Source: Candidatus Ancillula glyptotermitis
GTDB taxonomy: Bacteria; Actinomycetota; Actinomycetes; Actinomycetales; Bifidobacteriaceae
Length of the DNA stretch: 54,296 bases
Reading direction: 5' to 3'
Assembly: GCA_031268675.1 (NCBI GenBank)
Contig: JAIRWY010000015.1
Span: 1-54,296, forward strand
Part shown: positions 41,986 through 45,733 of the stretch, in pieces
How the letters are laid out: the number at the start of each line of letters is the position of its first letter
How positions within the stretch are numbered: the stretch's first letter is position 1
Translations under genes and position numbers: made by a program
Notes under the pieces: model-generated
What the model was told of the DNA's origin: nothing
Database searches by the model: none
Seen by the model: only the letters and a program-made list of their open reading frames with translations

Positions 41986-43140
41986 TTACCGCAGTCCTTT
42001 CGGTCTATTAAGTGCCTCTTGAATTAGGCTATCAAGTAGTTGACTAAAACTTAGACCATCTTTAGCTACAAGAGATGGAAACATTGAACTTTCTGTAAAG
42101 CCTGGAAGAGTATTTATTTCGTTTATATATACATCTCCTTTTGTGGTCAAAAACATATCAACCCTAGAAAGTCCTTCTGCGTCAAGTGCTTCAAACGCTT
42201 TTAGGGCAACCTCCAAACAATGTTCTTGATTTTTATGATCCATAGCAGGATTTACAATAAGTTTTACACCGTTCTTGGAAATATATTTAGTGTCATAGTT
42301 GTAAAAATCACTTTTTGTAGTCTTAATTTCTCCTAGTGTAGATGTTTTTGCCGCATAATGATCTCCAAGAAGTGCGCATTCAATTTCACGACCTTCAATC
42401 CCCTGTTCAATAATAACTTTTGGATCCATACTTGCTGCTTTCTCAATAGCAGGCAGTAAATCTTGTTCCTTTTGAACCTTGGAAACACCAAAACTTGAAC
42501 CACCACGTGCTGGTTTAACAAATACCGCTTGTTTCCAGTTGTTGCTAAAATCTTGTACTTTTTTAAGAACTTCTTCTGCTAACACAAAGTCTTTTCTCAG
42601 TTTCATACGACCTCTTCGATCTTCTACAAGTTGAATTCGCAAAGTCACCCACGGAGCAACTTTAAGTCCCGCTTGCTGGCAAATTAACTTGGTGAAGTGT
42701 TTATCTTGTCCAACTGCAGATGATAATATGCCACAACCTGCGTATTTAATACCAAACATCTCAAAAAGTCCTTGAATTGAGCCATCTTCACCATATGGAC
42801 CGTGCAATAATGGTAAAACAACATCAAGATTTAGTCCCTTATGCTTGGCTTTAAACTTCACGATATTACTATTAAACTTGTGCTTTCCTATTGCATTTGA
42901 AACTTCAGGCATAGCATATTTTCGTCGTCCACGCTTATTGAGTAGTTTAGGTTCTAGTTGCTCTGGCGAATCCCGAACATAAAGCCAAGTGCCTTCTTTT
43001 GTTATTCCAATTGGTACAACTTTATACATTTCGCGGTTTAAAGCACGTAGAACGCCAGCAGCAGTTAAACATGAGATACTATGTTCACTTGACACGCCAC
43101 CGAAAACCACACCAACGCGTACTAACTTGTTGTCTTCCAC
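41986..43140 (-). CDS. ddl: D-alanine--D-alanine ligase
   Basis: Makes the D-Ala-D-Ala dipeptide for peptidoglycan precursors. ATP-grasp features are GGVSSEHSISCLTA near the N-terminus, PLLHGPYGEDGSIQG, FVKPARGGSSFGVSKV, and near the C-terminus LSRVDMFLTTKGDVYINEINTLPGFT. Starting at GTG 43140, the protein is 384 aa. The frame is open to ATG 43158, but those codons contain the TATAAT itself, so the six bases after it lead straight to GTG and the gene is leaderless. Confidence 0.93.
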   Translation of the reverse strand: MEDNKLVRVGVVFGGVSSEHSISCLTAAGVLRALNREMYKVVPIGITKEGTWLYVRDSPEQLEPKLLNKRGRRKYAMPEVSNAIGKHKFNSNIVKFKAKHKGLNLDVVLPLLHGPYGEDGSIQGLFEMFGIKYAGCGILSSAVGQDKHFTKLICQQAGLKVAPWVTLRIQLVEDRRGRMKLRKDFVLAEEVLKKVQDFSNNWKQAVFVKPARGGSSFGVSKVQKEQDLLPAIEKAASMDPKVIIEQGIEGREIECALLGDHYAAKTSTLGEIKTTKSDFYNYDTKYISKNGVKLIVNPAMDHKNQEHCLEVALKAFEALDAEGLSRVDMFLTTKGDVYINEINTLPGFTESSMFPSLVAKDGLSFSQLLDSLIQEALNRPKGLR

Positions 43141-43146
43141 ACTACT

Positions 43147-43155
43147 ATTATAGCA
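43147..43155 (-). promoter_or_regulatory. Extended -10 promoter of ddl (leaderless)
   Basis: Minus strand TGCTATAAT (43155-43147), then six bases to GTG 43140. Its divergent neighbour is the poly-G promoter at 43184-43211. Confidence 0.7.
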
Positions 43156-43183
43156 CATTTCTTGTCTGGGCTTCCCAACCTAC

Positions 43184-43211
43184 TTGACAAGCGGGGGGGG
43201 GGTGATATAAT
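43184..43211 (+). promoter_or_regulatory. Promoter with G10 tract in its spacer (candidate phase-variable)
   Basis: TTGACA (43184-43189) and TATAAT (43206-43211) flank a 16-bp spacer in which 43193-43202 are ten consecutive G. The -10 is of the extended TGA form. Gaining or losing one G changes the spacer to 17 or 15, so slipped-strand mispairing would switch transcription strength of the surface-protein gene. This is the classical arrangement of phase-variable adhesin promoters. Confidence 0.8.
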
Positions 43212-43243
43212 AGACATATTATGGATTATAGGAGATGTGGTTG

Positions 43244-45733
43244 ATGAACAAGAACGCGTATAGAAATAGCAAACTAGCTGAAAAAAACAGTGCGGAAAAC
43301 AGTGCGGAAAACAGTGTAAGCTGTAAACAACTTGCGCAAGACAATCTGCATGTTGCTAAATCTAGCACAAGTATAAAAAAGCGCGATGTAAATCGCTCTG
43401 GGTTTAGCACAAGCACACAGAATATACGGAATATGCACAATTTTCGCAATTTTCATGCAAAAATTACTCCACTTATTGCTGTATTTGCACTAGTTGCATT
43501 TTCAATCTTCATCGGTATAAAACTACCAGCATTCGCAGAAGACCACGTGCAAACTCATTCTGCTGGGCAAGATTTGGAGTCAAATAGCCCTATAACGCAT
43601 TTAAACACGCAAATTAGCGCGCAAGTACCTTCACGTGTACAAAGTACTACTATAACCCCTCAAGCAAGCACAGGCGCAAATATCGAACTTTCAGACGGAG
43701 ACGAAACAGCAACAAGTGGTACAGGTTGGACTTATGCAGATGGCGTATACACAATCAACAGCGGTGCAACTGCAGACGCGAACCTCACAATTACAGGTAC
43801 AACCACGAACAAGCGAGTAGTTGTGGCAAGCTCAGCAACTGCGACTGTTACGCTGAATGGGGTGAGTATTGACCAGAGCGGTAAAGAAGACGCTTCAGGA
43901 TCTGTTTTTAGTATTAGTGCTGGTGCAAATGTGACTATCAAGCTACAAGGTAACAATACATTAAAATCTGGACGAAATGTTGAATATACAGGTTACGCAG
44001 GACTAAATGTACTAGGCGGATCAACTTTAACAATTGAGAGCGTTGCTGGAACTGGAAGTACAGAAGGGAGTTTATCTGCAACTGGCGGAAGGGATGGCGC
44101 TGGTATTGGCGGTAATGATAATTATTCTGGAGGACAAACAAGAGGACAAACAGTTGGAACGATAACTATCAACGGCGGAACAGTAACTGCAAATGGTGCA
44201 GCAAATGGTGCTGGTATTGGTGGAGGAGATCATGGTGAAGGCGGAAGTGTCACTATTAACGGCGGAACAATAACAGCAACTGGTGGTGGTTCTTCAGCTG
44301 GCATTGGCGGTGGCTTGTATGGAGACGGCGGAAGCGTCACTATCAACGGTGGAACAGTAACTGCAAATGGTGCAGCAACTGGCGCTGGTATAGGTGGAGG
44401 TGCCCATGGCTCTGGCGGTATAATTACTATAACTAATGGAACAGTCACTGCAAATGGCGGTAGTTCTGCGGCTGGTATAGGTGGTGGAGAATATGGCGAA
44501 GGCGGAAGTGTCACTATCAACGGCGGAAAAATAACTGCAACTGGCGGAGTGGATGGAGCTGGTATTGGTGGAGGTGTCTATGGAGACGGCGGAAGTGTCA
44601 CTATTAACGGCGGAAATATAACTGCAACTGGCGGAAGGGATGGCGCTGGTATTGGCGGAGGATATAATGGCTCTGGAGGAGATATCACAATTGAAGGTGG
44701 AGTAGTTATTGCAATTGCAGGTGAAAGTGTTTATGATAAAGGTAGCATTGGGGGCGTTAATTCTAGTCCTACTGACGGTTCAACCGTAATTTCAGGCGGC
44801 ACAGTTATTGGAATAGGCGGTCAAATTGGCTATTCCAACACAGGTGGTACGACTATCACTAATCACCCCGTAATCCTAGCACCAGGTGGCATCAACGGCA
44901 AATCATCATCTGAACCAAATAACGGCATACTAATCGGCAGCGATGTATCAATTTCAGGCACTGATCCCATAACCGTCACCATCAACATAAACCTAACCAT
45001 ACCAAGTGGTGCAACTTTCACAATTCCAGAAGGCGTAAAAGTAGTTGTTCCAAGTGAAGTAACTTTAACAGTTGATGGAAAAGTAGATATTGCTGGTGAA
45101 CTAGAGAATGAAGGAAATATAGCTATTGAAGATAATGCAGATGTAGTAATTGAAGATGGCGGAACAGTTACAGGAGATGGAACAGTTACAGGTAAATTCA
45201 ACGGCTCTGATGTATCTGAACTACAACTAGCATCAAAAACAAGTACAAGTATAACTATAAACCCAGCAACTTTGTTGTCTACAACAGGACAAGATATAGA
45301 ATATGCAATATCTACGGATTCAACTGCTCCAACAAGCGAAAGCGACTGGTATTTAGCAACTTCTGAAGGCGTTATTACAATTGAAGATAGCAAAGTGTCG
45401 TTTACTGGCCTTGTTCCAAACACCCAGTATTATATCTTCGCAAGATCTAAAGAAAATGCCACGCATAAAGCAGGTACAGCAAAACAACTAGAAGTTAAAA
45501 CAGAAGTTGATCCAAACGCGCCTGTTAATCCAGCAACTCCAACTACACCTGATAATCCTGCAAGTGGTTCAAACCCTAGTGCAAGCAACACAAGTACAAT
45601 AGGCGCAGTTGCACAAACTGGTGTTCCTGCTAGTTTACTTGTTGTGGTTATGTTGATGTTGTTGGTGGTTGGTGCGGGAATGCGCAAGCGGAATGATTTG
45701 CAGGCAAATCGCGTAACTTATCGCAAGGCGTAG
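43244..45733 (+). CDS. Surface protein with 29-residue glycine repeats, FN3-like domain and VAQTG sorting-like signal
   Basis: An 829-residue exported protein. Start ATG 43244 is set by SD AGGAG (43230-43234); the frame begins at 43235, too close to that SD. The signal peptide is unusual: about 70 charged or polar residues with NSAE repeats precede the hydrophobic segment (ITPLIAVFALVAFSIFIG, cleavage likely after AFA near 99). About six repeats of 29 residues follow (around 305-485), each with TINGG..TATGG..GAGIGGG, like right-handed beta-helix surface proteins. A smaller FN3-like domain lies near 660-760, and the C-terminus has VAQTG, a TM and a basic tail. VAQTG resembles the LAXTG (class E) sorting motif of actinobacteria. 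Confidence 0.82.
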   Translation: MNKNAYRNSKLAEKNSAENSAENSVSCKQLAQDNLHVAKSSTSIKKRDVNRSGFSTSTQNIRNMHNFRNFHAKITPLIAVFALVAFSIFIGIKLPAFAEDHVQTHSAGQDLESNSPITHLNTQISAQVPSRVQSTTITPQASTGANIELSDGDETATSGTGWTYADGVYTINSGATADANLTITGTTTNKRVVVASSATATVTLNGVSIDQSGKEDASGSVFSISAGANVTIKLQGNNTLKSGRNVEYTGYAGLNVLGGSTLTIESVAGTGSTEGSLSATGGRDGAGIGGNDNYSGGQTRGQTVGTITINGGTVTANGAANGAGIGGGDHGEGGSVTINGGTITATGGGSSAGIGGGLYGDGGSVTINGGTVTANGAATGAGIGGGAHGSGGIITITNGTVTANGGSSAAGIGGGEYGEGGSVTINGGKITATGGVDGAGIGGGVYGDGGSVTINGGNITATGGRDGAGIGGGYNGSGGDITIEGGVVIAIAGESVYDKGSIGGVNSSPTDGSTVISGGTVIGIGGQIGYSNTGGTTITNHPVILAPGGINGKSSSEPNNGILIGSDVSISGTDPITVTININLTIPSGATFTIPEGVKVVVPSEVTLTVDGKVDIAGELENEGNIAIEDNADVVIEDGGTVTGDGTVTGKFNGSDVSELQLASKTSTSITINPATLLSTTGQDIEYAISTDSTAPTSESDWYLATSEGVITIEDSKVSFTGLVPNTQYYIFARSKENATHKAGTAKQLEVKTEVDPNAPVNPATPTTPDNPASGSNPSASNTSTIGAVAQTGVPASLLVVVMLMLLVVGAGMRKRNDLQANRVTYRKA
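43287..43316 (+). repeat. 12-bp tandem repeat near the start of the surface-protein gene
   Basis: ACAGTGCGGAAA occurs at 43287-43298 and 43299-43310, with a partial third copy (ACAGTG) at 43311. Each full unit encodes NSAE. Copy changes would keep the frame and alter the long N-terminal extension. Confidence 0.7.
44161..44700 (+). repeat. 87-bp tandem repeats encoding the glycine-rich beta-helix units
   Basis: About six units of roughly 87 bp, sharing GGCGGAAGTGTCACTAT and AACGGCGGA-type words, code for 29-residue repeats with TINGG and AGIGGG cores. High similarity between units offers room for recombination. Confidence 0.75.

Follow-up and report, generated by a model that had tools for sequence, protein, structure and literature searches.

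A poly-G promoter spacer in Candidatus Ancillula glyptotermitis is one of about 31 in the genome and is predicted to be phase-variable

Does a G10 tract that separates the -35 and -10 boxes of a promoter act as a switch for the surface-protein gene downstream, and is that promoter alone in its genome? Both questions are raised by a locus in the window, by which we mean the whole stretch of 54,296 nucleotides that was analyzed (contig C53 of the source genome). The source genome is a MAG-like draft of 1,802,720 bp in 100 contigs and is 82% complete; its tract counts may be off by one. It has a sampled GC content of 36.8-38.5%, an XFP phosphoketolase and a family make-up consistent with Bifidobacteriaceae; the part of the genome paper that was consulted lists Ancillula glyptotermitis Gsp477_bin129 with 1.80 Mbp and a GC content of 37.92% (PMC11707648).

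The window promoter and its gene

The features of the locus are as follows.

43147..43157, minus strand: divergent extended -10 TGTGCTATAAT, probably the ddl promoter (direct reading)
43184..43189, plus strand: -35 box, perfect consensus TTGACA (direct reading; ACTTGACAAGC is kept across the cassette of the source genome)
43193..43202, plus strand: G10 tract, the proposed slippage site, inside the 16 bp promoter spacer 43190-43205
43203..43211, plus strand: extended -10 (TGN), TGA-TATAAT, with TATAAT at 43206-43211
43230..43234, plus strand: Shine-Dalgarno AGGAG for the start at 43244 (direct reading; the leader is kept among paralogs)
43244..45733, plus strand: controlled gene, encoding an 829 aa exported beta-helix repeat protein (PF18889; single-sequence model, low confidence)
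43415..43513, plus strand: N-terminal hydrophobic helix or signal peptide region (ITPLIAVFALVAFSIFIGIKLPAFA; model helix 58-90, common to paralogs)
45608..45733, plus strand: C-terminal sorting-like signal made up of VAQTG, a hydrophobic helix and a basic RK tail (model helix 798-819)

The promoter reads TTGACA, AGC, G10, TGA, TATAAT, with the G10 tract forming most of the spacer. A preliminary description of this DNA had placed the tract exactly between a perfect TTGACA and a perfect extended -10 with a spacer of 16, and the coordinates confirm every detail. The arrangement is of the porA type, in which a homopolymer lies between the -35 and -10 boxes and sets their distance. An Rfam search at the locus gave no match. 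On the other strand, the strong extended -10 TGTGCTATAAT overlaps the listed ddl ATG at 43158 (minus), and the ddl start is therefore probably near 43125; the PF01820 match in the listed ddl ORF starts only at residue 14. For the controlled gene, AGGAG precedes the ATG at 43244 by 9 nt, which gives the protein of 829 aa. The ORF list has an ATG at 43235 (832 aa), an unlikely start because AGGAG is too near to it.

The gene product had been described as an exported repeat protein with a sorting-like signal, and the protein analysis agrees. Six stretches match PF18889 (Beta_helix_3) with 84.3 bits against a Pfam gathering cut-off of 27, and a hydrophobic helix follows an N-terminal extension of about 57 aa. 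The single-sequence structure model has a beta-rich core at a mean pLDDT of 54, and a fold search of this model against the PDB returned nothing at E<=0.001 (best 0.3). Substrates of class E sortases carry an LAXTG-type motif. The window protein has an export signal, a hydrophobic helix and a basic tail, but its motif is VAQTG and not LAXTG, while related proteins carry TAQTG, LAKTG or others. One sortase was found in the source genome, and it belongs to class E (220.5 bits, cut-off 160); the window protein is probably anchored by sortase. A search of the source genome with the window protein gave 47 matching stretches, indicating a large paralogous family, and a plasmid search gave no match. 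Within the N-terminal extension (window 43290-43320), a 12-bp in-frame repeat, GAAAACAGTGCG, differs in copy number among paralogs.

A genome-wide set of poly-G promoters

The preliminary description had called the G run conspicuous. This is correct for the window, where it is the only run of at least eight Gs on either strand (shuffled windows average 0.08 matches), and for the source genome, where 49 runs have at least eight Gs and 42 of these at least ten, against an expectation of 0.05-0.13 runs of at least ten Gs per 1.8 Mb on both strands under Markov or independent models derived from the window. By treating a single tract, however, the earlier reading overlooked the larger fact that about 31 promoters genome-wide, the window one included, have such a tract. 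A strict pattern (TTGACA N1-5 G8 N1-10 TATAAT) occurs in 25 places in the source genome, all of them perfect TTGACA/TATAAT promoters, and control searches of the same genome with the reversed pattern and the poly-C form each gave 0. Adding near-perfect promoters (two in which the -10 is TATACT, two that lack TTGACA, one truncated at a contig end and a diverged one with G19) brings the spacer tracts to about 31.

These promoters have a cassette in common, TTGACAAGC-Gn-TGCTATAAT, in which the -10 side is TGCTATAAT in 19/28 and TGATATAAT in 5/28. Among the copies the tract ranges from 9 to 15 Gs over otherwise kept flanks. The DNA 5' of the -35 box is mostly unrelated, so each copy is a locus of its own, as opposed to a single locus that the assembly repeats. 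The G19 tract (C40:58603, minus) has a differing layout, with CCCGGGC and CCCGC on either side and CTATAAT after them, and precedes the gene for a giant RCC1-repeat exported protein. At C56:3997 (minus), a cassette-like TTGACAAGCAGC-G10-TGCGATATAA lies upstream of an ORF that resembles DNA polymerase III alpha by sequence.

Downstream genes could be identified in 27 cases, and 24 of these encode exported or membrane proteins (21 predicted surface proteins and three further membrane proteins, one with DUF4956). The beta-helix/N-terminal-module family accounts for 14 of the 27, assigned from common leaders and N-termini as several contigs end within the gene; SLH proteins account for five and giant exported proteins for two. 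The remaining genes encode a UDP-glucose/GDP-mannose dehydrogenase (1/27) and ABC ATPases (2/27). A simple hydrophobicity comparison of downstream ORFs in the source genome was not significant (7/10 vs 37/68): surface genes abound at these loci, and only a few ORFs could be used. Gene classes were subsequently set from Pfam and common N-termini. Separately, G tracts occur within the coding part of genes for large exported proteins on C41, C50 and C88. They read in frame as assembled, and at n-1 the product is cut short. These tracts would be frameshift-type switches alongside the promoter type.

Spacer length was compared with an ordinary set, sampled from the source genome, of 83 perfect TTGACA/TATAAT pairs that have no poly-G tract. 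Among the matches listed, the ordinary spacer is 17 bp in 50/83 and 18 bp in 23/83, and pairs with an extended -10 have 17-18 bp in 60/63. This upholds the earlier claim that one extra G would bring the window promoter to an optimal 17. The 25 poly-G spacers are spread from 15 to 21 bp (two of 15, two of 16, four of 17, nine of 18, six of 19, one of 20 and one of 21), and 12/25 are off the 17-18 optimum, compared with 3/63 ordinary extended -10 promoters among the matches listed (Fisher p=7e-6). Since ordinary promoters of the genome favor 17 or 18 bp, the 16 bp of the window is off-optimum, and the window gene is predicted to be OFF or weakly expressed, with the ON state one or two Gs away. 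Spacer length can matter less when the -10 is extended, so that the promoter may be weak rather than OFF.

Tract length has changed much faster than the flanking sequence. The window leader (G10) and the C66 leader (G13) differ by six substitutions and no gaps in 150 nt, yet their tracts are three Gs apart; closely related leaders carry G11 (C90), G12 (C7 and C89) and G13 (C10). A tract that changes far faster than its flanks is a further porA-type property, found here among paralogs only. As paralogs and not clones are compared, this speaks for hypermutability since duplication and not for reversibility. A MutS search of 19 genomes from the family and order, the source genome among them, gave no match (control genomes were positive in 11/14), and the consulted part of the genome paper reports mutS/mutL as absent from termite-associated Bifidobacteriaceae (PMC11707648); on both grounds, repair of slippage is probably weak.

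Poly-G promoters in other genomes

Among 189 genomes of the family, the strict pattern was matched by the source genome alone, and 247 other sampled genomes of the order gave no match. A relaxed pattern reached at most four matches in any other family member. Repeated TTGACCATCCTG11TCCGCTAGTTT-like elements, up to four copies per genome, were seen in four genomes of one family genus, g5 (G126, G146, G137 and G151), and are maybe another cassette in Bifidobacteriaceae.

Across GTDB species genomes, matches to the strict pattern are common in Faecalibacterium and in uncultured Bacilli and Clostridia of the gut. The highest counts per genome are 35, 31, 23, 18 and 18, each genome with its own cassette, and the reversed control gave 0 in 45/45. 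Lineage-specific cassettes with 9-35 copies per genome were observed in G198, G213, G235, G208, G222, G210 and G221 (uncultured gut Bacilli, Clostridia, Candidatus Faecalibacterium). The difference in cassettes between lineages suggests that poly-G cassettes arose independently. ORFs downstream of the tracts in these other genomes more often have N-terminal hydrophobic stretches (38/50 vs 97/408, p=6e-13), and in four unrelated gut genomes a spacer of 17-18 bp was found in 2/23 poly-G promoters vs 24/30 other promoters (p=2e-7). Five IMG/VR viral contigs also carry the strict poly-G promoter pattern.

Promoter switching, its alternatives and its meaning

We consider it very probable that the source genome uses slipped-strand phase variation of promoter spacing over much of its surface repertoire, in a porA-like manner, with the window promoter as one of about 31. 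The G10 tract would make the spacer of this sigma-70-type promoter hypermutable. Slippage during replication would add or remove single Gs and so shift the distance between -35 and -10, with good transcription expected at 17 or 18 bp and poor transcription at 15-16 or 19-21 bp. We infer slippage as the origin of the length spread from the comparison of sequences; that tract length sets transcription is suggested by analogy with porA and by the spacing preference of the source genome. With one cassette on about 31 promoters, much of the surface repertoire would come under independent random switching, gene by gene, and the benefit might be phage escape, avoidance of recognition by the termite flagellate host, or variety in adhesion.

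Unusual promoter spacers can also be regulated, as in MerR-type systems. With this precedent, the G tract could be a fixed spacer element, read by a regulator or through DNA shape, whose length is constant for each gene. The sequence around the tract is conserved in the cassette, and sampled tracts in two other lineages are near-constant, all of eight Gs in G198 and all of nine Gs in G235, both small samples. The source-genome lengths of 9-15 Gs and spacers of 15-21 bp nevertheless cross any single geometry, near-identical leaders differ by one to three Gs, and a single cassette in G213 carries 7-10 Gs, which together make a fixed element improbable.

Paralogous promoter-leader modules might instead have come to differ in length by recombining or by gene conversion with one another, and not by slippage in each tract. 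About 14 genes have the leader and N-terminal module in common while the DNA 5' of the -35 box is unrelated, as expected if the module has been copied around. Copying moves lengths but does not generate many different ones, and variable tracts are also found on non-family genes with other leaders (SLH, ABC, dehydrogenase); we regard this origin as very improbable. An artefact of sequencing or assembly, through stutter or two-colour dark-cycle Gs, is scarcely credible as the source of the tracts and was rejected. The same promoter boxes bound the runs at 25 sites that have unrelated DNA upstream, the reversed pattern has no match, and artefacts would not choose promoter spacers. On the other side, C24, C68 and C72 end at or just past a tract, and Illumina reads can fail at G tracts (PMC9187656).

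Slipped-strand switching of promoter spacing has precedents, and a single poly-G promoter switch is of a known kind. In Neisseria meningitidis, a poly-G tract between the -35 and -10 of porA, an outer-surface protein gene, gives graded expression with 11G, 10G and 9G (PMC3639595). That case concerns one gene of a Gram-negative pathogen with measured switching, whereas about 31 cassette promoters in a member of Bifidobacteriaceae are recognized here from sequence. Bifidobacterium breve UCC2003, of the same family, has G tracts of 9-12 that slip and control sortase-dependent pilus genes, thus also governing surface structures (PMC9187656); unlike the source-genome promoters, the characterized tracts lie in coding sequence, act by frameshift and occupy few loci per genome, although the authors mention in passing, without detail, unpublished G-tracts in promoter spacers. 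Gardnerella, again of this family, resembles the source genome in its many variable homopolymer tracts: the consulted part of the report gives a median of 20 G/C tracts per genome, about 70% of them upstream of ORFs and some in surface-protein genes, with length variation seen by Sanger sequencing, but describes no common promoter-spacer cassette (PMC11287997). Candidatus Mycoplasma girerdii is likewise protist-associated with many surface-protein paralogs, and repeat-length variation in its BspA-like proteins was detected in metagenome reads (PMC5476646); it differs in its phylum and in using dinucleotide repeats that act largely by frameshift. For termite Bifidobacteriaceae genera, the consulted part of the genome paper reports no sortase-dependent pili and does not mention phase variation (PMC11707648). 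The literature searched, in which subscription papers and preprints were thinly covered, held no description of the cassette in termite Bifidobacteriaceae or gut Bacilli, and a copied cassette over much of a symbiont surface repertoire appears undescribed there.

A broader proposal, to which we give roughly even chances, is that poly-G promoter phasomes evolved independently among non-pathogenic symbionts and gut commensals in several phyla. In each, one lineage-specific cassette would have been copied in front of 10-35 genes, mostly for exported proteins, and any one cell would express a random small subset of its surface repertoire, most of the genes being OFF through their spacer length. 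A 2025 review of phase variation lists the apparent restriction to pathogens of genomes rich in phase-variable loci as a major question still to be answered (PMC11868660); the source genome and the gut genomes matching the same test are candidate counter-examples to this confinement. The combined test, with poly-G spacers off the optimum and ordinary promoters on it, is applicable to any genome. The consulted part of the genome paper describes the source lineage as endosymbionts whose genomes are eroding (PMC11707648), and a surface repertoire that is both large and switchable is not what one would expect there. If the proposal is true, a phasome would be at work in a relative of the bacteria that live inside termite gut flagellates.
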